Positions 7,845-46,899 of a DNA stretch of 47,702 nucleotides are shown piece after piece. The position numbers were made by a program, and so were the translations under genes. This stretch comes from an uncultured Eubacteriales bacterium. GTDB taxonomy: Bacteria > Bacillota > Clostridia > Oscillospirales > Oscillospiraceae. Location: positions 1-47,702 of the forward strand of contig ONBX01000012.1 of the NCBI GenBank assembly GCA_900316205.1. Direction: 5' to 3'. Within the stretch, counting starts at the first letter, position 1, and every line of letters starts with the position of its first letter. The notes beneath the pieces are model-generated. The model saw only the letters and a program-made list of their open reading frames with translations, had not been told where the DNA came from and did not search any database.

Positions 7845-7881
7845 GGGTTCAGCTCCTTTTGGGCTTGCGAATCGTTCTTGT

Positions 7882-8973
7882 TTATTTCAGGATGATATCG
7901 CAGATCCGGTCCACGTCCTCCCCGGCCAGATCCGCGTAGAGGGGCAGGGTCAGCACCCGGTCGGCCACATGGGCGGCCACCGGGGTGTCTGCCGGATCGA
8001 AACCGGGCTTACCGGCATAGCAGGCGAAGCTGTTGGTGAGGGGGTAGAAATACTTCCGGGCGTTGATCTTCTGCTCCGCCAGGCGGGCAAAGACCTCATC
8101 CCTCGTCATCCGGAAGCCGTCGAAGACCACCGGGAAATAGGCGTTGTTGGAGCGTACCCCCTCCTGGACGGGATTGAGCTGCAGGCCCGGGACGCCCTCG
8201 AGTCTTGCCCGGTAGTGCTCCACCACATGGCGGCGCTTTTCGATCTCCTGCTCCAGATGGCGCAGGTTGCACAGGCCCATAGCCGCGCAGAACTCGTTCA
8301 TCTTGGCGTTGCCGCCCACATAGGGCACCTCCTCCGGCCCGTGGATGCCGAAGTTTTTCAGATCGTTCAGGCGGCGGAGCGTCTCCTCGTCCCGGCAGAC
8401 GGCAAGCCCGCCCTCGATGGAGTGGAAGACCTTGGTGGCGTGGAAGGAGAACATGGCCGCGTCTCCGAAGGAGGCGGCGCTGACGCCCCGGCGGAACACG
8501 CCGAAGGCATGGGCCGCGTCATAGATCACCGGGATGTGGTACTTTTCCCCGATGGCGGCGATGGCGTCCACGTCGCAGAGGTTGCCGTAGACATGCACCG
8601 GCAGGATGGCCGCTGTCTTCTCCGTGATCTTCTCCTCGATCCCCCTGGGGTCCAGGGTGAAGCTCTCCGGGTCGATGTCCCCGAAGACCGGGGTGCAGCC
8701 GCAGCGGGTGATGGCGTGAGTGGTGGAGGCGAAGGTAAAGGGAGTGGTGATGATCTCTCCCTTCAGCTCAAAGGCCTCCAGCAGGTTTTCCAGGGCCAGG
8801 TGGCCGTTGGTGTGCAGGGCAAGAGATCCGCAGCCCAGATAGTCTCGCAGGGCCTGCTCCAGTTTCTGGTGCTTCTCGCCCATGTTGGTGAGCCAGCGGC
8901 TGTCCCAGAGGCCGCGGATTTCCTCACAGTACTCCTCAAAGGGAGGCATGGAGGAGCGCGTCACATTGATCAT
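7882..8973 (-). CDS. DegT/DnrJ/EryC1/StrS aminotransferase
   Basis: 363-residue PLP enzyme of the sugar aminotransferase family, which transfers an amino group to keto-sugars for surface polysaccharides or secondary metabolites. The internal aldimine lysine lies in SFHATKVFHSIEGG; AAHAFGV carries the aspartate-region motif (YDAAHAFG) that contacts the PLP ring, and HTNGHLALE the phosphate-binding turn. The start (MINVTRSSMPPFEEY) is set by AAAGGAG; the first base pairs overlap the stop of the ATP-grasp gene (ATGA). The tight coupling with an ATP-grasp enzyme and a flippase argues for building an amino-bearing sugar or small adduct on an exported glycan. Confidence 0.93.
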   Translation of the reverse strand: MINVTRSSMPPFEEYCEEIRGLWDSRWLTNMGEKHQKLEQALRDYLGCGSLALHTNGHLALENLLEAFELKGEIITTPFTFASTTHAITRCGCTPVFGDIDPESFTLDPRGIEEKITEKTAAILPVHVYGNLCDVDAIAAIGEKYHIPVIYDAAHAFGVFRRGVSAASFGDAAMFSFHATKVFHSIEGGLAVCRDEETLRRLNDLKNFGIHGPEEVPYVGGNAKMNEFCAAMGLCNLRHLEQEIEKRRHVVEHYRARLEGVPGLQLNPVQEGVRSNNAYFPVVFDGFRMTRDEVFARLAEQKINARKYFYPLTNSFACYAGKPGFDPADTPVAAHVADRVLTLPLYADLAGEDVDRICDIILK

Positions 8974-10178: not shown

Positions 10179-11626
10179 GCCTGCGCCCCCTTTCTGTTGC
10201 GATAGTTTTTTACCAGCTCCCACAGGAAGCGGAAGCTTTCCACTTTAAAGAGCACCGAGCCCAGCACATAGACCAGCACGCCCAGGGGGACCTGCAGCAG
10301 CAGGGTGGGCAGATCGCCCAGGCCCAGCTTCATCACCAGTCCCACCAGCACCGCCATGCCCGCCGAGAGCAGGATGGCCGGCAGCATATCCCAGAGCTGG
10401 CGCCAGTAGGAGTAGTCCAGCAGCTTCCGGTTGGGCCAGGCGTTGATGAGTTGGGAGGCGATGCTGCAGCCCAGCTCGCCCAGGGCCATGGCCAGCACCC
10501 CGTAGCGCACGGTGATGATCAGCACCGTGGTCTCCAGGATCTTTTTCACGATCTCCAGCTTCAGGAACACGTCGCTGCGGCCCATGGCCTTGATGGCGTT
10601 GAGGTTGGCGGTGTGCAGGGGATAAAAGGCGTAGATCACGCAGAAGATCTGCAGATAGGGCACGCAGGGCAGCCACGCGTCTCCCAGCAGGAAATGCACC
10701 AGGGGCCTTGCGCAGGCCGCAAGCCCCGCCATCATGGGCATCATCACATAGGAGCTGGTCATGATGGCCCGGCGGGTCATGTCCCGGACCCGTGTCTTGT
10801 CGTCCTGCTCCGCGGAGAGCACCGGCAGCAGCACCGCGTCGATGGAGGCGTTGATGCTCTGGGTGATCTGCTCGGGCCAGTTGCGGCCCTTGTCGAACTG
10901 CCCCAGGGCTTCCTTGGAATAGGCCGCGCCGATGATGAGGGGATAGACCTGGAGATAGACCGTGTCCAGGAAGGCGGCGGCCAGCAGCTTCCAGCCGTAG
11001 GACAGAAGCCCCTTGAGCCGCCGGAAGGAGAACATGCGCTTCGGCCGCCACTCCACCGTGAACCACAGGATCACGGTGTTCACCGTGAAGTTGGACAGCT
11101 GCAGTGCCACCAGCGCCCAGATCCCGAAGTCCAGATAGGCCATGCTGATGCTCAGCGCCGCGGAAAACAGGGTGCCGCCCAGGGTGGCAAAGAAGAAGCG
11201 CTTGAACTGCAGGGTCTTGGCCACATAGGCCTGCTGCACGTTGAAGAGCCCCGACACCACCACCAGCAGACCCAGCACCCGCAAGATGGGCACATAGGAG
11301 GGCTCCTGATAGAGCCGGGAGATGGCCGGTGCCGCGAGGAACAGCACCGCGTAGAGCAGCAGGCTGAAGCCCAGATTGAAGAAGAACACGGAGGAATAGT
11401 CCAGATCGTCCGTATCCTTTTTCTGGATGAGGGCGTTGCCCATGCCGCTGTCGGCGAAGACCTTCAAAATGGTGATCACCGCCATGATCACGGCGATGTC
11501 CCCGGCGGGTCCCGGGCCCAGCTTGCGGGCCAGGATGATGCTCACCACGATGCTGACCGCCTGGGCGCCGAAGCGCTCAAAGAAGCGCCAGATCAGATTG
11601 CTGATGACTTTGCTTTTCTTATCCAT
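10175..11626 (-). CDS. Polysaccharide flippase (Wzx/MOP superfamily)
   Basis: 483 residues with about 12-14 membrane helices. The N terminus (SNLIWRFFERFGAQAVSIVVSIILARKLGPGPAGDIAVI) and the pattern GMGNALIQKKD..D..SSVFF are typical of lipid-linked oligosaccharide flippases of the WzxC type. It should move undecaprenyl-linked sugar units across the membrane. AAAGGA precedes the ATG. It sits 27 bp after the glycosyltransferase and overlaps the ATP-grasp gene. Confidence 0.92.
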   Translation of the reverse strand: MDKKSKVISNLIWRFFERFGAQAVSIVVSIILARKLGPGPAGDIAVIMAVITILKVFADSGMGNALIQKKDTDDLDYSSVFFFNLGFSLLLYAVLFLAAPAISRLYQEPSYVPILRVLGLLVVVSGLFNVQQAYVAKTLQFKRFFFATLGGTLFSAALSISMAYLDFGIWALVALQLSNFTVNTVILWFTVEWRPKRMFSFRRLKGLLSYGWKLLAAAFLDTVYLQVYPLIIGAAYSKEALGQFDKGRNWPEQITQSINASIDAVLLPVLSAEQDDKTRVRDMTRRAIMTSSYVMMPMMAGLAACARPLVHFLLGDAWLPCVPYLQIFCVIYAFYPLHTANLNAIKAMGRSDVFLKLEIVKKILETTVLIITVRYGVLAMALGELGCSIASQLINAWPNRKLLDYSYWRQLWDMLPAILLSAGMAVLVGLVMKLGLGDLPTLLLQVPLGVLVYVLGSVLFKVESFRFLWELVKNYRNRKGAQA

Positions 11627-11653
11627 AACAGAATCCTTTGGTATTCTTGCAGA

Positions 11654-12634
11654 TTATTCGCCGTAACCCCGCTTTTTGCGATAGAGCCGGTGCAGACGGG
11701 GAAAGGCGTTTTTCAGCCGGGTAGCCAGGCGGAAGGACAGCGGCTTTGCCCGGAACAGATCCCGGTAAACGGGCTTCACCAGCTCCTCCGTCCTGCCCTG
11801 GAGATAGGCAAGCTCAAATTCCCGCTCCCGGATCACGGCTTCGGTCTGCGCCCGCTGCTCTCCGCTCACGTGGGGCAGCACAGCCTTCAGCATCTCCCGC
11901 TCACCGGTGACGAAGTGGACGCGCTTGTCGTAATACTGTCCCACGCCGCTGCTCCAGGCTCCGGGGTTGGAGCCGATGCGGTAGAGGGACATGCAGCGGT
12001 CCAGGAAGCGGATCTTCCCCTGCATGCTGAGCCAGATGGCCACGGCGTAGTCGGTAAACTGATACTTCCATCCCACATAGCGGAAGTCCGGCGATTTCAC
12101 GATCCACTCCCGCCGGGCCACGATGGAGCTGGTGTGGAAGGAATGGCTCATGCCCCGGATGGTGGTGTCAAAGCCCACATCCCGGTCCCCGGTGCTGGGG
12201 AAGAGGGGCTTTGGCTCCTCGCCGGAGCCGATCAGCTGTCCCAGGCTGTTGTGCACACAGGCGGAGTAGTCCGGATGGGCGTCCAGAAAGTCCACCTGAC
12301 GCTGGAGCTTTTCGGGATCGGTCCAGCAGTCGTCCCCCTCGCAGGCGGCCAGGTACTGGCCCCGGGCCGCCGGGAAGAGCACCGCGTCCAGAGGGTCGAT
12401 CCCCTGGGAAAACAGGTTCTTCTCCTGGAAGAAGGGGCGGATGATATGCGGGTATTTCTCCGCGTATTCCCGGATGATGGCGGCGGTGCCGTCGGTGGAG
12501 GCGTCGTCGCTGATCAGTACCTCAAAGGGAAAATCGGTGCGCTGACTTACAAAGCCCTCCAGGGCGTCCCGGATATATTCCTCATGGTTATAGGCCATGC
12601 AGGTCACAGAGAGCTTGATCGCTGCCTTATCCAT
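11654..12634 (-). CDS. Family 2 glycosyltransferase
   Basis: 326 residues, GT-A fold. The N terminus reads LSVTCMAYNHEEYIRDALEGF, with the nucleotide-binding ISDDASTDGT at about residues 40-49 and the metal-binding acidic cluster CEGDDCWTD at about 95-103. It should transfer a sugar from an activated donor to the growing surface glycan. I chose the ATG at 12632-12634 (MDKAAIKL), 8 bases after GAGGA. It starts 5 bp after the GIY-YIG gene ends, so all genes from DUF951 to the spermidine-synthase-like protein could form one transcript. It is the only glycosyltransferase in the cassette. Confidence 0.92.
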   Translation of the reverse strand: MDKAAIKLSVTCMAYNHEEYIRDALEGFVSQRTDFPFEVLISDDASTDGTAAIIREYAEKYPHIIRPFFQEKNLFSQGIDPLDAVLFPAARGQYLAACEGDDCWTDPEKLQRQVDFLDAHPDYSACVHNSLGQLIGSGEEPKPLFPSTGDRDVGFDTTIRGMSHSFHTSSIVARREWIVKSPDFRYVGWKYQFTDYAVAIWLSMQGKIRFLDRCMSLYRIGSNPGAWSSGVGQYYDKRVHFVTGEREMLKAVLPHVSGEQRAQTEAVIREREFELAYLQGRTEELVKPVYRDLFRAKPLSFRLATRLKNAFPRLHRLYRKKRGYGE

Positions 12635-23131: not shown

Positions 23132-24076
23132 ATGATCCATCTTTCCAACATGCCCACCGCAGGTCTGGTGGTCATGATCGTGATCGGACTGCTGTTTGTG
23201 CTTTCGCTGCTGCTGCTGTTCCACGTCTATCTGCGCTATAAGCTGCTGGCGGGCAAGGCCAAGGGCGATCCGGAAAAGGTGCGGGGCTTCCGTGCCGCGG
23301 TGCTGGAGGAGTATACCAACGCCTATCAGAAATACGGGCAGGACACCAATACCCCTGCCATCATTTCCGACACGGTGGGGGCCAAGCTCTCGGGACTGCT
23401 GTTTTGCGAGCGCTTTTTGAATAACGCGGTGTCCCTCTTCGTGACCCTGGGTCTCTTCGGCACCTTCCTGGGCCTGAGCATTTCGGTGGCGTCCCTGACC
23501 GAGCTGCTGCGCTACTCCAACGGGGAGGACTGGCTCTCGGTAATGGACAGTGTGGGCGGCGGTCTGCTGTCGGCCCTGTCCGGTATGGGCGTGGCCTTTT
23601 ACACCTCCCTGGTGGGCGCTGGCTGCTCCATTTTGCTGACCATTCTGAAGACCGTCTTCAATCCCCAGGCGGCCCGGGAGCAGATGGAAACCCGGATGGA
23701 ACTGTGGCTGGACACCGAGGTGGCACCGGAGCTTTACACCGAGGCTGCCAAGAACGACTCCGACCTGGTGCGCCGCATGATCGCGGCCTTGAAGTCCGCC
23801 TCCGACGACTTCGGCGCCGCTGCCAAGGGGGCCTCTCTGGCCCTGGTACAGGCTGCCAAGGAGAACCGGGATGCCATCGCCGGTTGGGACAGGAGCCTGG
23901 AGAAATTCAACGAGGGCGTCCACGACTTCGCGGAGGTGGACTACAACCTGCGCGGCAGCGTGGAGCGCATGGACCTGGCGGTGCGGGACCTGGCCGGCGC
24001 CATGCGGGAGATCAACCGCCGCATGGAGGGCGGAAGCAAGTCCCAGGAAGGCGGCAAGCATGAGAAGGCAGTTTAA
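23132..24076 (+). CDS. MotA/TolQ/ExbB-like proton channel subunit (ZorA-like)
   Basis: 314 residues. Membrane helices: VVMIVIGLLFVLSLLLLFHVYL (about 12-33), a hairpin around FVTLGLFGTFLGLSISVASL (about 108-127) and GGGLLSALSGMGVAFYTSLVGAGCSILLTIL (about 148-178). The GTFLGL and LLSALSGMGVAFYTSLVGAG stretches are the MotA/ExbB channel core. A helical cytoplasmic tail of ~135 residues follows (LKSASDDFGAAAKGASLALVQAAKENRDAI...), as in ZorA rather than flagellar MotA. It overlaps the next gene by 17 bp. No flagellar, Tol or Ton genes are nearby. It should use proton flow to move its partner against the cell wall. Confidence 0.85.
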   Translation: MIHLSNMPTAGLVVMIVIGLLFVLSLLLLFHVYLRYKLLAGKAKGDPEKVRGFRAAVLEEYTNAYQKYGQDTNTPAIISDTVGAKLSGLLFCERFLNNAVSLFVTLGLFGTFLGLSISVASLTELLRYSNGEDWLSVMDSVGGGLLSALSGMGVAFYTSLVGAGCSILLTILKTVFNPQAAREQMETRMELWLDTEVAPELYTEAAKNDSDLVRRMIAALKSASDDFGAAAKGASLALVQAAKENRDAIAGWDRSLEKFNEGVHDFAEVDYNLRGSVERMDLAVRDLAGAMREINRRMEGGSKSQEGGKHEKAV

Positions 24077-25151
24077 GGGCCGGTCCGACGCCTTTGTCCG
24101 CTCCAACGACGGCGAACAGGGCTTCTGGCCTTCCTACGCGGACATGATGTCCGCCGTGGCGCTGATCCTGTTTTTCGTGATGCTGCTGAGCTACATCCAG
24201 AACCTCATCACCGGCAACAACCTGCAGAACACCGAGGCCGCTCTTGCCAGCACCGAGCAGCAGCTGAATCTCTCCGAGAGGAAGCTGGCCGATACCGAGG
24301 AGGAGCTCAGCGGCACTCAGGAAAAGCTGCTGGACACCCAGGAGGCCCTCACCGCCTCCCAAACTGAGCTGAAGGACACCCAGAACAGCCTGAAGCTGAC
24401 GCTGCAGCAGGTGTCCGCGGCGGAGGATCAGCTCAACAAGGTCACCGTGGACCTGGACAAGGCCAAGCTGACCCTGGCCCAGCAGCAGAAGGACCTGGCG
24501 GGCCAGAACGCCCTGCTGGCGGAGCAGAAGGCTCTGATCGCCGATCAGGAGCAGTACATGAAGGCAGCGGCCGAGGAGCTGCTTGCCATGCGCAGCCAGA
24601 TGCAGACCATCGCGGTGCTGCGCCTGTCCATCCTGGAGCAGATCCGGGACAGCATGGTGAAGACCATGGGCGACGCCTCCAAGGTCTCCATCAGCGACAA
24701 CGGCAACATCATCCTCAGCGAGAGCATTCTCTTTGACGTGGGCTCCTCGGAGATCAAGCCCGAGGCCTCCCCTGCCCTGGACCAGCTGATCGACGTGTTC
24801 CAGAAGTTCCTGGCCGATGAGAACAACGCCAAATATGTGGACAGCATCGTCATCTCCGGCCACACCGACAGCACCGGCACCGACGAGGACAACCGCGTTC
24901 TCTCCACCGACCGGGCCAACGCCGTCCTCAACTACCTGATGGCCGGCAAAAACGGCAGACTCACCCGCTACGCGGGCTACTTCTGCGCCGCGGGCTACGG
25001 CGAGACCCGACCGGTGCAGAGCAATGAGACCGAGCAGGGCCGCGCCGCCAACCGGCGCATCGAGATCTCCATCATCCTGCGGGACGACAGCGTCATGCAG
25101 ATCGTGGAGAGTTACCTGGACATCGACCTGCCCAAAATGCCGGGGGACTGA
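24060..25151 (+). CDS. MotB/OmpA-like stator subunit with long coiled coil (ZorB-like)
   Basis: 363 residues. One membrane helix follows the MotB-type plug with the proton-carrying aspartate: WPSYADMMSAVALILFFVMLLSY (about residues 22-44). Residues 50-170 are an uninterrupted coiled coil rich in E/Q/L/T heptads (LASTEQQLNLSERKLADTEEELSG...). Residues ~215-350 are an OmpA peptidoglycan-binding domain: SILFDVGSSEIKPEASPALDQL, ISGHTDSTGTDEDNRVLSTDRANAVLNYL, GYGETRPV, ANRRIEI. With the MotA-like partner it forms a stator-like complex reaching into the wall. The helical spacer is longer than in flagellar MotB. ATG at 24060 lies within the upstream gene. Confidence 0.88.
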   Translation: MRRQFKGRSDAFVRSNDGEQGFWPSYADMMSAVALILFFVMLLSYIQNLITGNNLQNTEAALASTEQQLNLSERKLADTEEELSGTQEKLLDTQEALTASQTELKDTQNSLKLTLQQVSAAEDQLNKVTVDLDKAKLTLAQQQKDLAGQNALLAEQKALIADQEQYMKAAAEELLAMRSQMQTIAVLRLSILEQIRDSMVKTMGDASKVSISDNGNIILSESILFDVGSSEIKPEASPALDQLIDVFQKFLADENNAKYVDSIVISGHTDSTGTDEDNRVLSTDRANAVLNYLMAGKNGRLTRYAGYFCAAGYGETRPVQSNETEQGRAANRRIEISIILRDDSVMQIVESYLDIDLPKMPGD

Positions 25152-38512: not shown

Positions 38513-38543
38513 CCTTCCGTCCTTCTTCCTCCGCAGAAAAAGG

Positions 38544-38759
38544 AGCTGTGAAATGCTTTCACAGCTCAAGCTGTCGACAAAGTGTCGCCAGCTTGAAAGG
38601 CAAAAATGGGAACTTCCGAAAAAGTTCCCATTTTTGCATGGATTGAACGTTAAGAGGGGCATACCCTCCCCTCTTAACAATCTCCCCATGCGAGTCGGTA
38701 CATTACCGCATGGGCGAAGGCTTGTCTATGGTCTGAGCTGTGAAATGCTTTCACAGCTC
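38544..38759 (+). mobile_element. Hairpin-targeting element, copy C, with 24-bp direct repeats
   Basis: The body (38568-38735, 168 bp) starts with AAGCTGTCGACAAAGTGTCG and ends in GGCTTGTCTATGGTCTG, as in copy B. Positions 38544-38567 and 38736-38759 are identical copies of a hairpin with arms AGCTGTGAAA/TTTCACAGCT. That duplicated hairpin is unrelated to the one around copy B, as expected if the element duplicates whatever site it enters. The element lies between the LysM peptide gene and the hydrolase gene. A T tract at 38765-38770 makes the right hairpin terminator-like on the plus strand. Confidence 0.65.
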
Positions 38760-38796
38760 AGACCTGTTTTTTCAGTCTGGCAGTGCTGCCCGCTTC

Positions 38797-38997
38797 TCAG
38801 AAACGGATGACCAGCTTCTGACCGGCCTTCAGGTCCTGAGGATTGCGGATGTTGTTCCAGCGGCAGAGCTGCTCTACCGTGCAGTGGAAATGCTTGGCGA
38901 TCTCTTCCATGGTGTCGCCGGGGCGAACGAAATAGGGGATCATCGTGCCGCCGCTCACAGATTCCAGGACTTCATCTTCCAGGGGAGCTGCATTCAT
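38797..38997 (-). CDS. Double-glycine leader peptide with a LysM domain
   Basis: 66 residues. The leader MNAAPLEDEVLESVSGG (1-17) ends in GG, followed by a 49-residue predicted mature part that is almost entirely one LysM domain (YFVRPGDTMEEIAKHFHCTVEQLCRWNNI...DLKAGQKLVIRF). LysM binds N-acetylglucosamine in peptidoglycan or chitin. The start is set by GGAGG at 39006-39010, 8 bases upstream; two earlier ATGs are too close to it. There is no Sec signal; export should be through the C39-peptidase ABC transporter upstream in the operon, because the leader matches that of the CW_7 peptide at 9 of 12 positions. Last gene of the operon; short cysteine pair (HC, LC) present. Confidence 0.87.
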   Translation of the reverse strand: MNAAPLEDEVLESVSGGTMIPYFVRPGDTMEEIAKHFHCTVEQLCRWNNIRNPQDLKAGQKLVIRF

Positions 38998-39030
38998 GTT
39001 CATTACCTCCATGTTCAGGATTGTTCGTGC

Positions 39031-41469
39031 TTAATAGAACGTGTAGTTGTTGGTGAGACCTTCCTTGCCGTCCTTCCAGGTCAGGTAGCCGGAGCCGCGG
39101 TCATACTTCATGGAGCCGCTGCCGTTGGTGTAAGCCTGCTCGGGGGCGCCGTATTCGCCGTTTTCACCCATGGTCTCAACGGTTTTGACGCAATCTTTGT
39201 AGCTCAGGTTCCCGTCCGCGTCAAATTTTCCGTGGAAGACCCACTTGATGCGCTGGTTGTCCTTGACCCAGACCGCCGTGACCTGCACGCCGTCTGCGTA
39301 ATCCACAATGCGCACCTCGATGCCAACGCCGCTCATGGCATGGAAGGTACCGGTCACCTGGGTGGGAGCGGGATCCGGTTCAGGGTCCACGGGAGCGGGA
39401 TCCGGCTCGGGATCGGGCTCAGCGGGCTCAGCAGGCTCAACGGGCTCTTCGGTGGGCGCGGGCTCTTCGGTGGGCGCGGGCTCCTCGGTGGGTTCGGGCT
39501 CCTCGGTGGGTTCGGGATCAACCTCGGGAGAGTCGCCGTAGATGTCTACCAGGTAGATGTTCTCTCTGGTGGGGACATTCTCGTAGTAAACCGTGCAGCT
39601 GCAGCCCTCGGCCAGTTCGCCGTAGAGCAGGCGGCACACGGAAGGATCCACTGTCACGGTCTCGCCGTTGGAGAGCACGATGACATAATCCTCACCCGTG
39701 CTGACGCCATAGACGTTGCCGGCCATGGAGGCATAGATGGGCTCGGGATCGGGCGTGGGCTCCGGCGTGGGCGTGGGCTCCGCCTTGTTCTCCAGGGTGA
39801 TCATGCCGCCGCACTCGATGGTGCCGAAATACCTGCCGCTGTAGGTGCCGTTGAAGCGCCACTGGACGTTCATGGGCAGCTCCACAGTGCCCTCGGGCAG
39901 CTGGATGGAGAAGGTACGGTTGCCGAAGACCGTGCTGGTTTTGCCGCCCTGGTAATTCAAGGCGGGCTGATTCATCTTGACGATGCCGTTGCCCAGGGTC
40001 AGGGTGACGTTGTCCGCCAGAGGATTGAGCTGGATGCTGGCGTGGCGGATACCCACGTTCATGGTGACCTCAGCCTGGTTGGGGCCGGTGCGAACGGCAA
40101 ACCAGTCGCAGTACAGGTCCAGGGCCGTGCCGGTCTCGGAGCTGAAGCCGCCCTTGCCGATGATGTCACCGGTGGGCACAGGCGCGGGCGTCACGGTGGG
40201 CACAGGGGCCACGGTAGGCGCCGCGGTGGGCGCAGGCGTGGCGGTGGGCGCCGGCGTGGGCGTGGGAGCCGGCTTGGCCTTCACGAAGAGGTAGGCAGTG
40301 TTGGTGCGGGCGGTCTGGCCCTCATAGTTGAAGGTGCAGTAGGCGCCCCAGTTATTGACCTGCTTGGGCAGCTTGTCGATGGTCAGGGTGGTGCTGTAGA
40401 GGCCGCTGAGCTGTACGCCGGGGAACTTGTTGGCAAAGTTCTGGGGGGTGTACTCCCAGCCCTCGGGGGACACGAAGGTCCAGCTCAGAGAGGTGTAGAT
40501 GTTGGCATAGGCCACGAAATAGGCGGTCTTGCCCTCTTCCCGGCTCTCATTGGTGGGGTTCTTGGTGACGTAGAGGAACAGCGGCGCGCTTGCGTCTTCC
40601 GCAGGCTGCGGCATCTGGTCCAGGGGCTGGGGCAGAGGCAGAGGATTGGTCTTGTCCGGGGTCTTGTCGCCGGTGAAGACCGCATAGCTGTCGCTCAGGG
40701 TGGCGGCGTCCACGGCGTCCTCATAGCGGAACCAGCCGAAGTTGCTGCTGACCTTATCCATGCCGAAGAAGAGATGCTCTCCGGCGTTGTTGAAGGCCTC
40801 GGCCTCGATGGTGCGGCCTTCCGGATCCATGTAGCTCACGGTGCGCTGGCCGTTCTGCACCAGGATGTGCTCAATGGCCAGGGGCTGATAGCTCAGGCTG
40901 CCGTTTTTCAGGGTCACGGCGCACTTGTTGGTGTAGCCCTCGTTCTCACTGAGCAGGATGTTGTCGTAAAACAGATAGGACCAGGCGCCGGTGGCGGGGT
41001 CATAGTAAGTATCCGCGTTGTCCGACAGGATATCGGGGAAGGACTCGCCTTCCTCCAGCTTGGTGCTGCACTCCACCAGGGCGTCCATCTTCTCGCTCAG
41101 CTCCCAGAGCTTCACGGTGGTGGAGCGGTCGGCCTGGTGCTGGGAAGCGACCAGCACCTCTACCCGGCCGTTGTGGTCCAGGTCGGTGATGGCATAGCGC
41201 CAGTCGTGAGAGCCTTCCTGCTTGATGGAGGGCAAAGTCTGCAGCAGAGCCTGCATCAGGGGATCGGCGGGCTCCTCAGTGGGCTGTGTGTCCGGCGTGG
41301 CGGAGGGGGCTGCGGGCTCAGGGGTAGGCTGGCTGTCGCCGCCTGCCGAGGGAGCCTCCGTGGGGATCGCGGTGGTCTCCGGCTGCTGGGGCGCAACGCC
41401 GCCGCAGGCGGCGAGGGAGAGGGCCAGCGCCAGGACCAGGATCATGCATAAAACAGATCTTCTGTTCAT
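39031..41469 (-). CDS. Large proline-rich lipoprotein between the two leader peptides
   Basis: 812 residues. Lipoprotein signal with lipobox LSLAACGG near residue 23. A region with AITDLDHNGRVEVLVAS resembles FG-GAP/VCBS-like clostridial lipoprotein domains. An Ig-like domain (LFLYVTKNPTNESREEGKTAYFVAYA to about residue 400) and a Pro/Thr/Ala spacer (KAKPAPTPTPAPTATPAP) follow, then a beta-rich domain, a second proline/glutamate spacer with five to six EEPxPT repeats, and a C-terminal domain ending WKDGKEGLTNNYTFY. It would be anchored to the membrane and reach across the wall. The start follows GGAGG 7 bases upstream. I infer a partner or receptor for the secreted wall-binding peptides; no enzyme motif is visible. 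Confidence 0.85.
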   Translation of the reverse strand: MNRRSVLCMILVLALALSLAACGGVAPQQPETTAIPTEAPSAGGDSQPTPEPAAPSATPDTQPTEEPADPLMQALLQTLPSIKQEGSHDWRYAITDLDHNGRVEVLVASQHQADRSTTVKLWELSEKMDALVECSTKLEEGESFPDILSDNADTYYDPATGAWSYLFYDNILLSENEGYTNKCAVTLKNGSLSYQPLAIEHILVQNGQRTVSYMDPEGRTIEAEAFNNAGEHLFFGMDKVSSNFGWFRYEDAVDAATLSDSYAVFTGDKTPDKTNPLPLPQPLDQMPQPAEDASAPLFLYVTKNPTNESREEGKTAYFVAYANIYTSLSWTFVSPEGWEYTPQNFANKFPGVQLSGLYSTTLTIDKLPKQVNNWGAYCTFNYEGQTARTNTAYLFVKAKPAPTPTPAPTATPAPTAAPTVAPVPTVTPAPVPTGDIIGKGGFSSETGTALDLYCDWFAVRTGPNQAEVTMNVGIRHASIQLNPLADNVTLTLGNGIVKMNQPALNYQGGKTSTVFGNRTFSIQLPEGTVELPMNVQWRFNGTYSGRYFGTIECGGMITLENKAEPTPTPEPTPDPEPIYASMAGNVYGVSTGEDYVIVLSNGETVTVDPSVCRLLYGELAEGCSCTVYYENVPTRENIYLVDIYGDSPEVDPEPTEEPEPTEEPAPTEEPAPTEEPVEPAEPAEPDPEPDPAPVDPEPDPAPTQVTGTFHAMSGVGIEVRIVDYADGVQVTAVWVKDNQRIKWVFHGKFDADGNLSYKDCVKTVETMGENGEYGAPEQAYTNGSGSMKYDRGSGYLTWKDGKEGLTNNYTFY

Positions 41470-41552
41470 TTTCATTCCTCCGGAGAGGCGGCGAAGCGGG
41501 TCAAAGCGCTCCGTTGCCGCCTGATTCAGATTTGCGTGTGTCGCTCAGGCGA

Positions 41553-41861
41553 TCACAGCAGCATGTTGTTGACCAGGTTCTGGATCTTGTTGTAGTCGTA
41601 GCCGGCGCGGGTCAGAGCAGCCTTGCGGGCTTCGCCGTTGCCGTATTTGCCATCGATAACATCCTTGGCGACCTTTTCGTACTTGAGCAGGTCGTTCACC
41701 AGGCCCTGAACCACATTGGGATCAAAGCCGGCTCTGCGCAGAGCGTTCACACGGGCTTCGCCGTTGCCATAGTTGCCGTTGATGCAGGCGTAAGCAGCCT
41801 TCAGGTTGGCAGTCATACCGCCGGCGACTTCTTCCAGGACTTCATCGTTCAGCTTTTCCAT
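41553..41861 (-). CDS. Double-glycine leader peptide with two CW_7 (Cpl-7) repeats
   Basis: 102 residues. The leader MEKLNDEVLEEVAGG (1-15) is followed by an 87-residue mature part consisting of two CW_7 repeats: AACINGNYGNGEARVNALRRAGF-type (about 22-60) and DVIDGKYGNGEARKAALTRAGYDYNKIQNLVNNML (about 66-102). CW_7 domains in Cpl-7 lysozymes bind muropeptides; here they stand without any enzyme domain. Export by the C39-type ABC transporter just upstream is predicted. AAAGGA lies ~11 bases before the ATG. Two perfect GC hairpins (41896-41911 and 41948-41963) lie between this gene and the transporter gene and may set different expression levels. Confidence 0.88.
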   Translation of the reverse strand: MEKLNDEVLEEVAGGMTANLKAAYACINGNYGNGEARVNALRRAGFDPNVVQGLVNDLLKYEKVAKDVIDGKYGNGEARKAALTRAGYDYNKIQNLVNNMLL

Positions 41862-41895
41862 TGTGTATACATCCTTTCGTTTTTGATTGAACAGT

Positions 41896-41963
41896 CACCC
41901 CGCGGGGGGTGCTGGTCGTTTACGGAGCTGTGTTGTTTCCACCGTTTCCGCGCTGCCGCGCGG
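41896..41963 (-). promoter_or_regulatory. Paired hairpins between exporter and CW_7 peptide genes
   Basis: CACCCCGCGGGGGGTG (41896-41911) and CCGCGCTGCCGCGCGG (41948-41963) are near-perfect palindromes without U tracts. They could stabilise or process the mRNA so the peptide gene is expressed more than the exporter. Confidence 0.5.
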
Positions 41964-41975
41964 ATCGTTGTTCCA

Positions 41976-44180
41976 TTATTTTACTGCATAACTGTTTTCT
42001 GTGTCAAGCCTCTGTTTTGCCACCAGGGCCGCGAAGAGCCCGTCCTTCGCGATGAGTTCCTCATACGTCCCGTCCTCCACGATTTTTCCCTTGTCCAGCA
42101 CCAGGATCCTGTCGCAGTGACGGATGGTGCTGAGCCGGTGGGCGATGACGATGCGGGTGCATTTGAGGGCGTCCAGCGCGTCGGAGACCTGCTTCTGGGT
42201 CTTGTTGTCCAGGGCGGAGGTGGCCTCGTCGAACATCAGGATCTTCGGTTTTGGCGCCACCGCCCGGGCGATCATCAGGCGCTGCTTCTGCCCGCCGGAG
42301 ATGCCGCCAGCGCCCTCGGAGATCAGGGTCTGCATGCCCATGGGCATGGCCCGGATATCGTCGGCGATGCCGGCGATCTCCGCCGCCTCCCAGGCGTCGT
42401 CCAGGGAAAGCCTCGGATCTGTGATCACGATGTTGGAGTAGATATCCCCCTGGAAGAGGCTGCCGCTCTGCATCACCGTGCCGATGCGCCGCCGGAGGGA
42501 GCGCAGGTCCAGCTTGTCGATGTCCCTGCCGTCGTAATAGATGGCGCCCTTTTCCGGCTTCTCAAAGCCCAGCAGCAGCCGCATCAGCGTGCTTTTGCCG
42601 CAGCCGGTGCTGCCCACGATGGCCACATACTCCCCCGCCCGGATCTTGAGGCTCAGCCCGTCGATCACATAGGGCATGCTCTCCTTGTAGCGGAAGGAGA
42701 CCTTGCTCAGCTCGATGCTGCCGCTGAGACGGGTGACCATGGCCTTGGTCCCGGCGGATTCCGGCTCGGTCTTCAGGATGGGCTCCGCCAGCTCCAGGAT
42801 GGGTCGGATCTGGGCGGCGGTCAGCGCCATGCCGCTGAGGGAGGCGAAAGCGCCGGACACCATGCCGAAGGCCGCGTTGAAGGCCAGATACTCCGAGGGG
42901 CTCACGCCGCTCTTCACCGCCAGGGCGTACATGACCAGCGTTCCCGTAAGGGACACCGCCAGGGTGATGACGCCGCTGATCTTCAAAAACAGGGGTGGAT
43001 CGTAGTGGAGGCTGGCGCTCTCGGAATAGGAGGCGGCCCAGCGGGCAAAGGCCCGCTTCTCCGCGCCGGCCAGCTTGATCTTCTGGACGCCGTTTATGAG
43101 CGCAAAGCTCAGACCGTCGTTTTTCGCGTCCAGCTCCATGGCCTGCTTGCTGATGCGGATCTGCAGCAGGGAGGCCACCAGGCTCACGCCCACGCTTGCC
43201 AGGATCACCAGGATCGCGGGAAGGGCCAAGCCCGGGGCGAACTGGAAGATCTCCGTGATGTACAGAAGTGAGGCCAGGGAGCTCAGTCCCAGGGAGAAGA
43301 GCCCGCCCAGCAGCAGACTGCAGAGCCGGTTCACCGCCCCGAAGCGGTTGGACAGTTCGCCCGAGGAGTAGTTCCGGAAGAAGGACGCGGGCAGGTTCAT
43401 CACCCGCATCATCACCGCCGCCTCCACCGCAAGGCTGGTCTTGATCTCCAGGCGGTTCATCATCAGCTCCCGGACGCTGGTAATGAGCTGCATGGAGATG
43501 AGGGTGCACACGGTGAACACCGCTGCCCCCGCCAGCAGGCTCCGGCTGCCGCTTTCCAGCACCACACCGGTGAGGGCGTGGGTGACGCGGGGCATCAGCA
43601 TGCCCACCAGGGTCACCAGCAGGGTAAGCCCCGCCAGCAGCAGCACGTCCCCGGCGCTGAGGCAGTCCTTCATGTACTTCAGCAGATCCGGGATGCCGAT
43701 CTTTTTCAGCGGCAGGGGCCGGTAGAAGCAGACGGCCTCCTCCCGGATCATCGATGCGCTCTTTTTGTCCACACTGCAGCGCTCGCCGCTCACCGGGTCC
43801 AGAAAGCTGTAGCCGGAAAAGGGCTTCGGCAGCAGGGCCACGGGCAGTCCTTCCTCCCCGTAAAAGCCCAGCATCGGCCCGAAGGCATTGCGGTACCAGT
43901 CCCCCTCCAGGCGGACATTGCGCCGCATGATGCCGTGGGGACGCAGGCTGTATTCCAGCTGCTCCTCCGTCTCCTGGATGGAATCCGGGATCTCTTCCGG
44001 GCGGATATGGTAGTATTTCAGGATCTCTTCGATGGCGGCCTTGGTGACGATGCGGTCGTCGTTCAGGCTGCCGGCGCCGCTCTGGCCCAGCACCACGGAG
44101 GCCATGCGGAAGATGGAGTCTTCAAAAAGCTCCTGATCCTTCTGCTTGCGCAGGCGGATCTGGTCGTCAAACCAACTCAT
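41976..44180 (-). CDS. NHLM-type ABC exporter subunit without C39 peptidase
   Basis: 734 residues. The N-terminal ~165 residues (MSWFDDQIRLRKQKDQELFEDSIFRMASVVLG...) form the non-peptidase domain typical of the second ABC protein of NHLM systems. Six membrane helices follow (from AGDVLLLAGLTLLVTLVGML), then the ATPase: Walker A GSTGCGKST, signature ISGGQKQRL, Walker B ILMFDEATSALD and H-loop AHRLSTIRH. GGAGG lies 7 bases before the ATG at 44178-44180; a GTG at 44186 lacks the spacing. Starts 12 bp after the peptidase exporter gene ends, which suggests that the two form one transporter. Confidence 0.9.
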   Translation of the reverse strand: MSWFDDQIRLRKQKDQELFEDSIFRMASVVLGQSGAGSLNDDRIVTKAAIEEILKYYHIRPEEIPDSIQETEEQLEYSLRPHGIMRRNVRLEGDWYRNAFGPMLGFYGEEGLPVALLPKPFSGYSFLDPVSGERCSVDKKSASMIREEAVCFYRPLPLKKIGIPDLLKYMKDCLSAGDVLLLAGLTLLVTLVGMLMPRVTHALTGVVLESGSRSLLAGAAVFTVCTLISMQLITSVRELMMNRLEIKTSLAVEAAVMMRVMNLPASFFRNYSSGELSNRFGAVNRLCSLLLGGLFSLGLSSLASLLYITEIFQFAPGLALPAILVILASVGVSLVASLLQIRISKQAMELDAKNDGLSFALINGVQKIKLAGAEKRAFARWAASYSESASLHYDPPLFLKISGVITLAVSLTGTLVMYALAVKSGVSPSEYLAFNAAFGMVSGAFASLSGMALTAAQIRPILELAEPILKTEPESAGTKAMVTRLSGSIELSKVSFRYKESMPYVIDGLSLKIRAGEYVAIVGSTGCGKSTLMRLLLGFEKPEKGAIYYDGRDIDKLDLRSLRRRIGTVMQSGSLFQGDIYSNIVITDPRLSLDDAWEAAEIAGIADDIRAMPMGMQTLISEGAGGISGGQKQRLMIARAVAPKPKILMFDEATSALDNKTQKQVSDALDALKCTRIVIAHRLSTIRHCDRILVLDKGKIVEDGTYEELIAKDGLFAALVAKQRLDTENSYAVK

Positions 44181-44192
44181 TCCCACACCTCC

Positions 44193-46373
44193 TCAGTCGC
44201 TGGCCACCAGCTCTGTGTAAAGCCCGCCCCGGGCGTAGAGCTCCTCGTGGGTGCCCCGCTCCACCACCTGGCCCTTGTCCAGCACCAGGATCTCGTCGCA
44301 GTCCCGGATGGTGGAGAGCCGGTGGGCGATGACGATGCAGGTGATGCCCCGGTCTTTGATGGCCTGGACCAGCTGATACTCGGTCAGCGCGTCCAGGGCG
44401 GAGGTGGCCTCGTCCAGGATGATCAGCGTAGGATCCTGGGCCAGCACCCGGGCGATCTCCAGCCGCTGCCGCTGGCCGCCGGAGAGATCCTGTCCCCCCT
44501 CTGTGAGCTTGCCGGAGAAGCCGCCTTCCCGGGCCATGATATCGTCATAGATTTGGGCGTCCCGGGCGGCCAGGATCATCTCAAAGTCCTCGATGGAGCT
44601 GTCCCACATCTTGATGTTGTTGGCAATGCTGTCCCCGAAGAGGACGATGTCCTGGTCCACCACGGCAACGGACCCGGTGAAGACGCTGCGGTCGATTTGA
44701 GAGATGGGCTTGCCGTCAAAGAGGATCTCCCCGCTCCAGGGCTGGTAGAGCCCGGAGATCAGCTTGGAGAGGGTGCTCTTGCCGCTGCCGGAAAAGCCCA
44801 CCAGGGCCACCCGGCTGCCGGGCTTCACATGCAGGGAGAAGTCCCGGATCAGGGCGGGGGCCAGGAGCGAATAGCCGAAGCTCACGTTTTTCAGCTCCAC
44901 CTCGCCGGAGAGCTTGGAGTAGTCCGCCGTGTCGGAGAGGGGCGCGTCGGAGAAGCTGGGGTCGTCGGGATATTCCATCACGTCGTCCACCCGCTCCATC
45001 TCGGTGCGCATCTCCTGGATGGACTGGCCCGCGGAGATGAGCAGCATGGCCGGGGCCATAAAGGCGCTCAGAAAGCCCTGAAAGCTCAGGATGGAGCCGA
45101 TGGTAAAGCTGCCTTCCATCACCTGGCCCACGCCCAGGATCAGCACTGCCGCGCCCGCCAGGGAGCTCAGCAGGGCCGGGATCATGCCCAGGTACTGGTT
45201 GAGCTTGGCAAAGCGGACCGCCGAGGCGTTCACCGCGGCCTGATAGCCCGCCCATTTTTCAAAGTAGCCGTTTTCCGCGCCGCTGGCCTTGATGGTCTCC
45301 ACCATCTGAATGCCGGAGACGGTGGCGGAGGCAAGCTTGCCGCTGTCCCGCATCTGGGTGCGGGTGATGTTCACCCGCTTGGCGGAGATGATCTGGGACA
45401 CCAGCAGGTTCAGCACGATGGTGGCAAGGCCCACGATGGTGAGAGGCACGCTGTAGCGCAGCATGACCACCAGGTAGAAGATCATCATCCCCGTGTTCAG
45501 CAGCAGCGGGGCAAAGGTATCCACCAGGGTGCCGGCGATGGAGGCGTTGGCATTCATGCGCTGCAGGATATCGCCCGCCATGCGCTGGGAGAAGAAGCCC
45601 ATGGGCATTTTCAGCAGCTTCCACAGGAAGGAGGAGCTGCCCACCAGGGCCATTTTGCCGTTGATCTTCAGGGAGTAGACGGACTGGATCCAGGCCGTCA
45701 GCAGCTGGGCCGCCCCCAGGATGGCCAGCAGCACCAAAAAGGGCGTCAGCAGCTCCCGATTTTCGCCGGTGAGCAGCCGGTCCATAAAGAAGTTGGAAAA
45801 CACCGGGTTCACGATGCCGAAGAGGGCGCCGATGGCGGTGGAGAGCATGACGAAGGCCACCGCGGCCTCCGCGCCCACCAGTCTCCGTCGGGCGAAGGCC
45901 AGGGTGCTCTTCCGCCTGCCGCCGGGCTGAAAGTCCGGTCCCGGCTGGATCTGCAGGCAGACGCCGGTGAAGCAGCGGTCAAATTCCTCCGCGCTGACCT
46001 TCACCTCGCCCCGGGCCGGGTCGTTGAGCAGCACCTGCCTGCCCCGGAAGCCCCGCAGCACCACAAAGTGGTTGAAGTTCCAGTGGACGATGCAGGGGAC
46101 GTTCAGTTCCTCCCGCAGGGACTCCGGCTCGCAGCGGTAGCCCGATGCCTCCATGCCGTAGCTCCGTGCGGCAAGCAAGATATTTTTGGCGTTGGACCCG
46201 TCCCGGGACACGCCGCAGTCCAGGCGCACCTGCTCCAGGGGGATCCATTTGCCGTAATAGGCCAGGATCATGGCAAGGCAGGCGGCGCCGCATTCCAGCG
46301 CCTCCATCTGCATGATCACCGGCACCCTGGCCACTCCCTTGCGGAGGGGCTGTTTCACGCGATTTTTCTGCAT
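44193..46373 (-). CDS. Peptidase-containing ABC exporter (PCAT, NHLM type)
   Basis: 726 residues. The C39 peptidase at the N terminus has catalytic C28 (LECGAACLAM), H102 (WNFNHFVVL) and D118 (NDPARG), so it should cut after the double glycine of the leaders. The membrane domain spans about residues 165-450 and the ATPase carries Walker A GFSGSGKST, signature LSGGQRQRL and Walker B LIILDEATSALD. It joins processing and export of leader peptides at the membrane. The start is set by GAGGCGGG; the gene begins 11 bp after the HlyD-like gene. Confidence 0.94.
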   Translation of the reverse strand: MQKNRVKQPLRKGVARVPVIMQMEALECGAACLAMILAYYGKWIPLEQVRLDCGVSRDGSNAKNILLAARSYGMEASGYRCEPESLREELNVPCIVHWNFNHFVVLRGFRGRQVLLNDPARGEVKVSAEEFDRCFTGVCLQIQPGPDFQPGGRRKSTLAFARRRLVGAEAAVAFVMLSTAIGALFGIVNPVFSNFFMDRLLTGENRELLTPFLVLLAILGAAQLLTAWIQSVYSLKINGKMALVGSSSFLWKLLKMPMGFFSQRMAGDILQRMNANASIAGTLVDTFAPLLLNTGMMIFYLVVMLRYSVPLTIVGLATIVLNLLVSQIISAKRVNITRTQMRDSGKLASATVSGIQMVETIKASGAENGYFEKWAGYQAAVNASAVRFAKLNQYLGMIPALLSSLAGAAVLILGVGQVMEGSFTIGSILSFQGFLSAFMAPAMLLISAGQSIQEMRTEMERVDDVMEYPDDPSFSDAPLSDTADYSKLSGEVELKNVSFGYSLLAPALIRDFSLHVKPGSRVALVGFSGSGKSTLSKLISGLYQPWSGEILFDGKPISQIDRSVFTGSVAVVDQDIVLFGDSIANNIKMWDSSIEDFEMILAARDAQIYDDIMAREGGFSGKLTEGGQDLSGGQRQRLEIARVLAQDPTLIILDEATSALDALTEYQLVQAIKDRGITCIVIAHRLSTIRDCDEILVLDKGQVVERGTHEELYARGGLYTELVASD

Positions 46374-46384
46374 GGCCCGCCTCC

Positions 46385-46801
46385 TCAGCGAAACAGCAGC
46401 TTCAGCACCTGGGTCTGCTTATAGTGGACGGCGGCGTCATACTCCCCGTCGGCAAGGGTCGTCTCGGCCAGGGCGAACATGCCCTGCTCGTCCCATCCCA
46501 TGCTCCGGATCTCCGACCGGGTCTCCCCCACGGTGACGGACATGCCCACGTCCACATGCTCCGCCGCCCGCTCCTCGTCGAAGCGGACCAGCATGCTGCC
46601 CTGACTTACTTCCGCCTTGCCGTAGGCCACGCTGTCGATATAGGTCATGGAGCCCCACACCAGCAGCCCCGCCAGCAGCAGGATCACCGCCGTCAGCAGC
46701 ACCCAGACGCTGGGGTTCGTGACGCGGAGATAGTCGTTCAGCTGCTCCGGGGACTGGATCCGATCCAGACTGGACTCACGGTACAGATGCGCACGTTCCA
46801 T
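46385..46801 (-). CDS. Very short HlyD-like adaptor of the export system
   Basis: 138 residues. SSLDRIQSPEQLNDYLRVTNPSVWVLLTAVILLLAGLLVWGSM is the typical start of NHLM-type secretion (HlyD-family) proteins: a short cytoplasmic part, then one membrane helix. After that only ~90 extracellular residues remain, ending KQTQVLKLLFR, which resembles the final beta-barrel of HlyD. The long alpha-helical hairpin and lipoyl parts of usual ~400-residue members are absent. AAGGAG lies 8 bases before the ATG at 46799-46801. First gene of the operon. Confidence 0.85.
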   Translation of the reverse strand: MERAHLYRESSLDRIQSPEQLNDYLRVTNPSVWVLLTAVILLLAGLLVWGSMTYIDSVAYGKAEVSQGSMLVRFDEERAAEHVDVGMSVTVGETRSEIRSMGWDEQGMFALAETTLADGEYDAAVHYKQTQVLKLLFR

Positions 46802-46870
46802 GCTCATTTCTCCTTATCTCAAGGCTCCTCCGGCATCCTGCCGGACATGTATTTTCTTCCATTGTATAGT

Positions 46871-46899
46871 ATTATACCACCGCCCCGGAGGCGTGACAA
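46871..46899 (-). promoter_or_regulatory. Promoter of the wall-peptide export operon
   Basis: Minus strand TTGTCA (46894-46899), 17 bp, TATAAT (46871-46876). The leader contains a CCGGCATCCTGCCGG hairpin (46830-46844) before the first gene. Confidence 0.82.

Follow-up and report, generated by a model that had tools for sequence, protein, structure and literature searches.

The window, by which we mean the whole stretch of 47,702 nucleotides analysed here (contig ONBX01000012.1, assembly GCA_900316205.1), comes from an uncultured Eubacteriales bacterium of the Oscillospiraceae. It carries an operon, read entirely from the minus strand (46807 to 38797), in which an exporter cassette of the NHLM type stands before two small proteins with double-glycine (GG) leaders and wall-binding cores. 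Every gene that a first-pass annotation had named is present, and gene order and strand are as given there. On the sequence evidence set out below, it is likely that an NHLM-type exporter with a shortened adaptor has been repurposed here for small, apparently unmodified wall-binding proteins. The features, in the direction of transcription, are as follows.

46871..46899, minus strand: sigma-70-like promoter, TTGTCA-17-TATAAT with TG before the -10, 11 of 12 consensus bases, suggestive only
46385..46807, minus strand: mini HlyD-like adaptor, 140 amino acids (partial TIGR03794 match and structure model)
44193..46373, minus strand: C39-peptidase ATP-binding cassette (ABC) exporter, NHLM ABC1 (PCAT), 726 amino acids (Pfam, TIGR03796, catalytic triad)
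41976..44186, minus strand, start at 44180 or 44186: second NHLM ABC protein (ABC2), no peptidase (TIGR03797)
41978..42007, minus strand: possible second promoter shortly before the CW_7 gene, TTGACA-18-TAAAAT, 11 of 12 consensus bases; within chance
41553..41861, minus strand: CW_7 pair behind a GG leader, 102 amino acids, leader 1-15 and mature part 16-102 (Pfam, alignment)
39031..41475, minus strand: lipoprotein, 814 amino acids, LAAC lipobox read by eye
38797..39003, minus strand: GG-leader LysM protein, 66-68 amino acids (Pfam); the longest open reading frame opens at 39012, with the likeliest start inside it at 38997 or 39003

The identity of the exporter is clear from its family matches. 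ABC1 scores 926.3 bits against TIGR03796 (cut-off 853.3) and ABC2 736.9 bits against TIGR03797 (cut-off 709.4; both NCBIfam), so that the earlier call of a C39-peptidase exporter with an NHLM-type second ABC protein is borne out. ABC1 also has a Pfam C39 match of 128.8 bits with Cys28, His102 and Asp118 as the triad, and solved bacteriocin ABC transporters, 4ry2 among them, can be aligned with its residues 19-721. In a set of 35 related ABC1 proteins, the cysteine pattern is found in all 35, the histidine pattern in 34 (the protein of locus L068 reads NHYVV at that place) and the aspartate in 29; all 31 ABC2 proteins checked lack the cysteine pattern. The HlyD-like protein reaches only 24 bits against TIGR03794, short of the cut-off of 156.2, and the match is limited to positions 1-64 of 421, which makes the earlier label "mini HlyD-like" the right one. 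Its length is 138-140 amino acids across 18 aligned members, and a structure model (mean pLDDT 75.7) gives a helix at 32-53, read as one transmembrane segment, followed by strands in a small beta domain; a structural search of the PDB with this model returned no match at E <=0.001. With a mean pLDDT near 76, here and for the beta-sandwich domain discussed below, the models are read for helix-plus-beta and all-beta architecture and nothing further.

The cargo proteins are equally recognisable. Pfam finds CW_7 in two stretches of the first (105.8 bits) and LysM in the second (55.7 bits against a cut-off of 20.9), with no catalytic or pore-forming domain in either; the mature parts are thus the CW_7 pair and the LysM domain that had been described, with the lipoprotein encoded between them. 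In a docking model of the Cpl-7 endolysin, Ile, Gly, Asn, Arg and Gln contact the muropeptide (PMC5705596; this and the other papers cited here are drawn on for the parts of their text that were available). These residues recur at equal spacing in both repeats of the CW_7 protein (27/32/33/37/52 and 69/74/75/79/94), and alignment with the solved Cpl-7 structures 5i8l and 4cvd agrees on the ligand residues. In 15 CW_7 sequences, Gly32, Arg37, Gln52, Ile69, Gly74, Arg79 and Gln94 are invariant, and Asn33 and Asn75 nearly so. Mean dN over five loci is 0.087 for CW_7 and 0.120 for LysM, with nearly all dS values at 0.36-0.79, and on these estimates both genes are under purifying selection; the closest LysM pair differs by 4 versus 2 changes, too small a count to read.

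A third class of cargo, the class E beta-sandwich, has no separate gene in the window's operon; hhalign matches it to residues 436-558 of the lipoprotein (probability 97.5, E 5.6e-12). Presumably this domain reaches the outside by either of two routes, behind a lipobox in the lipoprotein or behind a GG leader as cargo. A structural search of the PDB with its model found no match at E <=0.001. Relatives extend the range of cores further: a PepSY core stands behind a GG leader in three loci (L132:10897-11160, L134:13738-14001 and L135:7616-7876; Pfam 46-53 bits), a longer LysM cargo behind a leader in L114, and an SH3-like cargo, below the Pfam cut-off, behind a leader in L128.

Double-glycine leaders had been claimed for both peptides, and the claim holds beyond chance in two ways, by matrix transfer and by models of the mature domains. 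A leader matrix trained on CW_7 proteins with the GG excluded picked the leader as the best 10-mer in 14/14 LysM, 6/6 beta-sandwich and 13/13 second-class LysM proteins (33/33 in all). Trained on LysM leaders, the matrix found the leader in 13/15 CW_7, 6/6 beta-sandwich and 13/13 second-class LysM proteins (32/34). The leader contacts reported for PCAT1, hydrophobic residues at -12, -7 and -4 together with the GG (PMC6959990), are kept in 100/102 leaders when A, and T at -4, are allowed; the search pattern partly sets position -4 but neither -12 nor -7, and the 102 come from 108 small matching proteins after six without a pattern match or with a leader under 13 residues were dropped. Across 48 aligned cargo proteins, the leaders are acidic (charge -1 to -5) and 15-25 residues long, with one of 32. 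A signal-peptide-like stretch is absent from all 48, in which 11-residue hydropathy peaks at 1.75; the N-terminal stretch of the lipoprotein, which is signal-peptide-like, reaches 3.28. Among the best homologues listed from a large protein database, 116/120 for CW_7 and 119/120 for LysM have the leader, counts biased towards it because the query profiles include the leader. The leaders seem interchangeable across unrelated cores.

These features are consistent with a leader-dependent, Sec-independent route of the kind first proposed for this operon, and the computed steps (triad, PCAT-type leaders, co-occurrence with the exporter) agree with it; export, cleavage after the GG and wall binding of the cargo are what we infer from them. 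The C39 domain would bind the acidic leader and cut after the GG, and the exporter would then pass the core to the outside, presumably unfolded, as about 49 residues of LysM or 87 of CW_7. Outside, the core may take the fold of a LysM domain or CW_7 pair (or, in relatives, that of a beta-sandwich) and bind peptidoglycan, so that cargo and lipoprotein, with its class E domain, could together form a non-enzymatic surface layer on the producer's wall.

Any such route must be weighed against the possibility that PCAT-type leaders here precede modified cores, as in ribosomally synthesized and post-translationally modified peptides (RiPPs), the modification being supplied, for instance, by a radical-SAM enzyme whose gene lies outside the locus. 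The NHLM export cassette was itself defined from RiPP clusters (Haft et al. 2010, PMC2887384), and in L063, a more distant cassette of the genus (ABC1 56% identical), a neighbouring gene reads by eye as radical-SAM-like. Yet the first-pass statement that no modifying enzyme is present stands for the operon's products under Pfam and NCBIfam scans, and it extends to the window's genome (96.4% complete) for the two families sought there: no LanC-like gene and no YcaO gene was found, by searches that were positive in 1/14 and 5/14 control genomes, respectively. The long Nif11/NHLP leader is likewise missing from both cargo proteins, TIGR03798 giving 16.1 bits (cut-off 32.3) on the last 14 of 68 positions for the CW_7 protein and no match for the LysM protein. 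Given also that folded domains can be recognised in the cores and that ligand residues are conserved in them, modification of this kind is improbable.

The operon type is a recurrent system. TIGR03796 is matched above its cut-off in 37/99 relatives and in 63/101 genomes of the genus, and the loci examined comprise 40 stretches around part of the TIGR03796 genes so listed together with 80 named loci. The latter are mostly metagenome-assembled genomes, many of whose titles mention the gut of goat, sheep, deer or buffalo; the closest relative among them by ABC1 (L071, 96% identity) is uncultured Clostridiales bacterium isolate RUG180, and RUG isolates are rumen genomes. One locus, L058, yielded no ABC1 under the rule applied. 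Models of the mature domains, leader excluded, were run on the 1728 unique proteins called in the loci and the window, and matched 61 LysM, 38 CW_7 and 18 beta-sandwich proteins. Small proteins with a GG leader make up 58/61 of the LysM matches (one other is small without GG and two are long), 35/38 of the CW_7 matches and 11/18 of the beta-sandwich matches, whose other seven are lipoprotein-like proteins of 713-837 amino acids, as in the window. The remaining three CW_7 proteins are cut by locus ends (L102 and L069) or have a mis-set start with the GG upstream (L042), as can happen with the home-made gene caller on which all these counts rest. The arrangement for which a search was proposed at the outset, GG-leader wall-domain genes near C39-ABC genes, is a repeated one.

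Two kinds of neighbour recur in these loci. STAS, response-regulator and unnamed 169-residue families lie beside several wall-cargo cassettes (e.g., L034:14692-14988, 6768-7574 and 7574-8080), suggesting partner-switching control. In several NHLM loci, a protein of 62-70 amino acids with a leader-like end (AAG or GG) directly precedes a sigma-70-type factor gene and could be a leader mimic tying exporter load to transcription; similar small proteins occur in L049 and L105.

L037:11127-11333 and 11314-11790: leader-like protein and sigma-70-type factor, with sigma domains found in this locus
L116, L121, L127, L128, L138, L139, L142, L145, L148: leader-like protein before a sigma factor, read by eye

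Presence of the cargo follows that of the exporter. Among 101 genomes of the genus, the exporter (called at E <=1e-150) is found in 55/59 genomes with either cargo and in 10/42 without (Fisher p 2e-13, a value that ignores relatedness), or in 51/53 GG-CW_7 and 43/45 GG-LysM genomes taken separately. Left out of these counts were the CW_7 matches in G020 and G109, which lie within open reading frames of 412 and 316 amino acids, and any LysM match scoring below 70 bits or beginning beyond position 7. On an exporter tree of 102 rows, the 46 wall-cargo rows need 4 changes against a shuffled mean of 15.1, and 0/500 shuffles were as low; this is a quick tree, with loci lacking a full-length ABC1 left out, 39/102 rows without a cargo label and four long branches. 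Exporters with PepSY cargo form a single cluster nested among those with wall cargo. Cargo switching in the NHLM exporter family becomes traceable on one tree.

Classical bacteriocin cargo in homologous operons had been named at the outset as the case that would speak against wall cargo, and it is found at a distance from the window. The 37 named loci with ABC1 identity below 73% carry Cys-rich long-leader proteins in 12 cases, PepSY in 3, LysM in 2 and CW_7 in none, whereas the 43 loci at or above 73% carry CW_7 in 22, LysM in 19 and the beta-sandwich in 7. Other proteins with long leaders, not Cys-rich (16/43 nearer and 11/37 more distant loci), and with short leaders (12/43 and 15/37) occur in both bands; wall modules are therefore not the sole possible cargo even near the window. 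A natural contrast within the same genome is offered by a second NHLM cassette on another contig (L050, contig C54), which has long-leader precursors, some of them Cys-rich; two precursors close to it were tested, and a Nif11 domain was found in one of these.

Such relatives invite a reading of the cargo as wall-targeting bacteriocins, in which mature CW_7 and LysM would harm the walls of neighbours and the lipoprotein would protect the producer. Bacteriocins are exported by this family, bacteriocin-like cargo that is hydrophobic or rich in Cys is found in distant relatives, and the mature cores have net charges of +1 to +4 (LysM) and 0 to +4 (CW_7). Immunity lipoproteins exist in other systems. 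Even so, the reading is doubtful, although it is the strongest of the alternatives considered here: the cargo has no catalytic or pore-forming domain by Pfam, related cargo is found throughout the genus with often several LysM proteins per genome (one of each kind in the window's genome), and no known immunity family appears among the operon's products in Pfam and NCBIfam scans. The domain that the lipoprotein has in common with another class of cargo is a better fit to a joint structure than to immunity.

As to the target, our guess gives the producer's own wall about an even chance and the walls of rivals distinctly less. The former is favoured because the kinds of cargo are kept across the genus, are often present as paralogues, and include one that shares a domain with the lipoprotein. 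A more specific and rather unlikely proposal is a general system for secreting wall ligands, by which producers would cover their peptidoglycan with a varying selection of the kinds of binding module found in phage endolysins (CW_7 and LysM; SH3-like in relatives), thereby blocking those sites to lysins and host lysozymes. Such a coat, if real, would protect passively, without any enzyme, against external lysis, and the diversity of cargo would be driven by the lysins encountered.

A CW_7 protein with GG leader was found in 1/295 genomes of the order (E 1e-10) and 1/398 of the phylum (E 1e-12), in each case the window's own; the other CW_7 hits in these samples lie inside open reading frames of 242-419 amino acids, start past the leader and are probably parts of lysozymes. 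The window's class of GG-LysM was found in 1/295 genomes of the order, and a second LysM class in 2/200 genomes sampled from 106 genera of the family; one of the two, G855, belongs to another genus. The locus of that genome, L164, combines the exporter with CW_7, LysM and beta-sandwich cargo, and restriction of the wall-cargo form to one genus is ruled out by it and by the GG-LysM of G855. In these thin samples, one genus accounts for most of what is seen of the form, and at least one further genus of the family has it too.

The larger CW_7 proteins of other genera raise the question of whether the proteins with GG leaders are remnants or spacers, the truncated tails of endolysins or hydrolases that happen to lie near an exporter with other, real cargo. 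Outside the genus, CW_7 does occur in larger, probably lysozyme-encoding frames, as just described, and not all cargo genes lie near a cassette. Purifying selection, the PCAT contacts kept in nearly all leaders, the retained ligand residues and the tracking of the exporter all run counter to this idea, the least probable of those considered here. Origin of the cargo as endolysin debris was rejected on the kept ligand residues, the leader contacts and a dN well below dS.

Several observations weigh against repurposing for wall cargo, the reading that we prefer. Cargo was found without a detected exporter in 4/59 genomes (G009, G117, G060 and G132, assemblies 65-93% complete), 10/65 exporter genomes have neither cargo, and some cargo genes lie far from any cassette. 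Both the co-occurrence and the tree tests are inflated by relatedness and near-copies, and on the tree wall cargo shows four gains or losses, not one. In the CW_7 protein, Ile27 falls outside the conserved columns of the 15 sequences and Cys26 of repeat 1 stands where Cpl-7 has Val260. The PCAT1 consensus also includes E at -8, a residue that no more than 43/102 leaders have. The rows of alignments A1-A4 were mostly chosen by the GG pattern, so the invariant GG there is mostly a selection effect and not independent evidence. Finally, the finding of no radical-SAM enzyme covers the operon's products, a genome-wide radical-SAM search not having been made. In three of the fetched stretches, GG-leader LysM or CW_7 genes occur without an exporter (L166:9356-9556, L168:9507-9833 and L169:387-707); an exporter elsewhere may handle such cargo in trans, or the assembly may lack the exporter.

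Transcription of the operon is less clear than its content. A single promoter had been annotated, and a candidate matching 11 of 12 consensus bases does lie at 46899-46871, but an equally good match at 42007-41978 means that a single promoter is not established. The region has five promoter-like sites against 2.1 (standard deviation 1.6) in shuffles, so neither candidate is proved; one or two promoters are possible. On the 3' side of the LysM gene, a palindrome with core GAGCTGTGAAA, 3 bases, TTTCACAGCTC occurs in two copies (38543-38567 and 38730-38764). Elsewhere in the window, adjoining plus-strand genes at 23132-24076 and 24060-25151, the first with a weak MotA/ExbB match below cut-off and the second with an OmpA-family domain, form a motor-like pair.

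GG-leader exporters are usually read, almost automatically, as bacteriocin or RiPP systems. By the sequence evidence gathered here, a large part of one genus, and at least one further genus of its family, seem to use such an exporter for recognisable folded wall-binding domains, which raises the question of what a gut bacterium gains by exporting peptidoglycan binders without an enzyme. The leader alone also offers a way to find small surface proteins that lack a signal peptide.

The first-pass annotation knew of no described system like this one, and no description of GG-leader LysM or CW_7 cargo was found in the literature searched, a scope outside which most subscription papers and bioRxiv lay. 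A close likeness is to the NHLM/NHLP-Nif11 cassette, in ABC1 and ABC2 above curated cut-offs, the GG cleavage site and the gene order HlyD-ABC1-ABC2, as seen in the conventional relative L031. That locus, from another family, has an HlyD of 602 amino acids against 140 in the window and, beside the cassette, long-leader precursors with mostly hydrophobic cores. Leaders in the wall-cargo loci are short, in place of the 66-85 residues given for NHLP/Nif11 (PMC4289311), the cores are wall-binding, and no modifying enzyme was found in the operon. With PCAT1-CtA of Clostridium thermocellum (PMC6959990), the system shares the C39 triad, the hydrophobic leader positions and GG, and the size of the cargo (CtA has 66 residues), but its cargo is a recognisable peptidoglycan-binding domain and its exporter has two ABC proteins and a mini-HlyD. 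Tolerance of varied small-protein cargo is a property of microcin V type I secretion, whose exporter passes small proteins of very different sequence with length as the main limit (PMC10231218); there, the cargo was supplied by the experimenter in Gram-negative hosts, whereas here wall-binding cargo is encoded in genomes of Bacillota. The Cpl-7 endolysin has the same CW_7 repeat with the same Ile/Gly/Asn/Arg/Gln positions; in the window, the repeat stands without an enzyme, behind a GG leader, and is not part of a phage lysin. The new part is the natural cargo itself, several kinds of peptidoglycan-binding domains encoded near a lipoprotein that carries the domain of another cargo kind.

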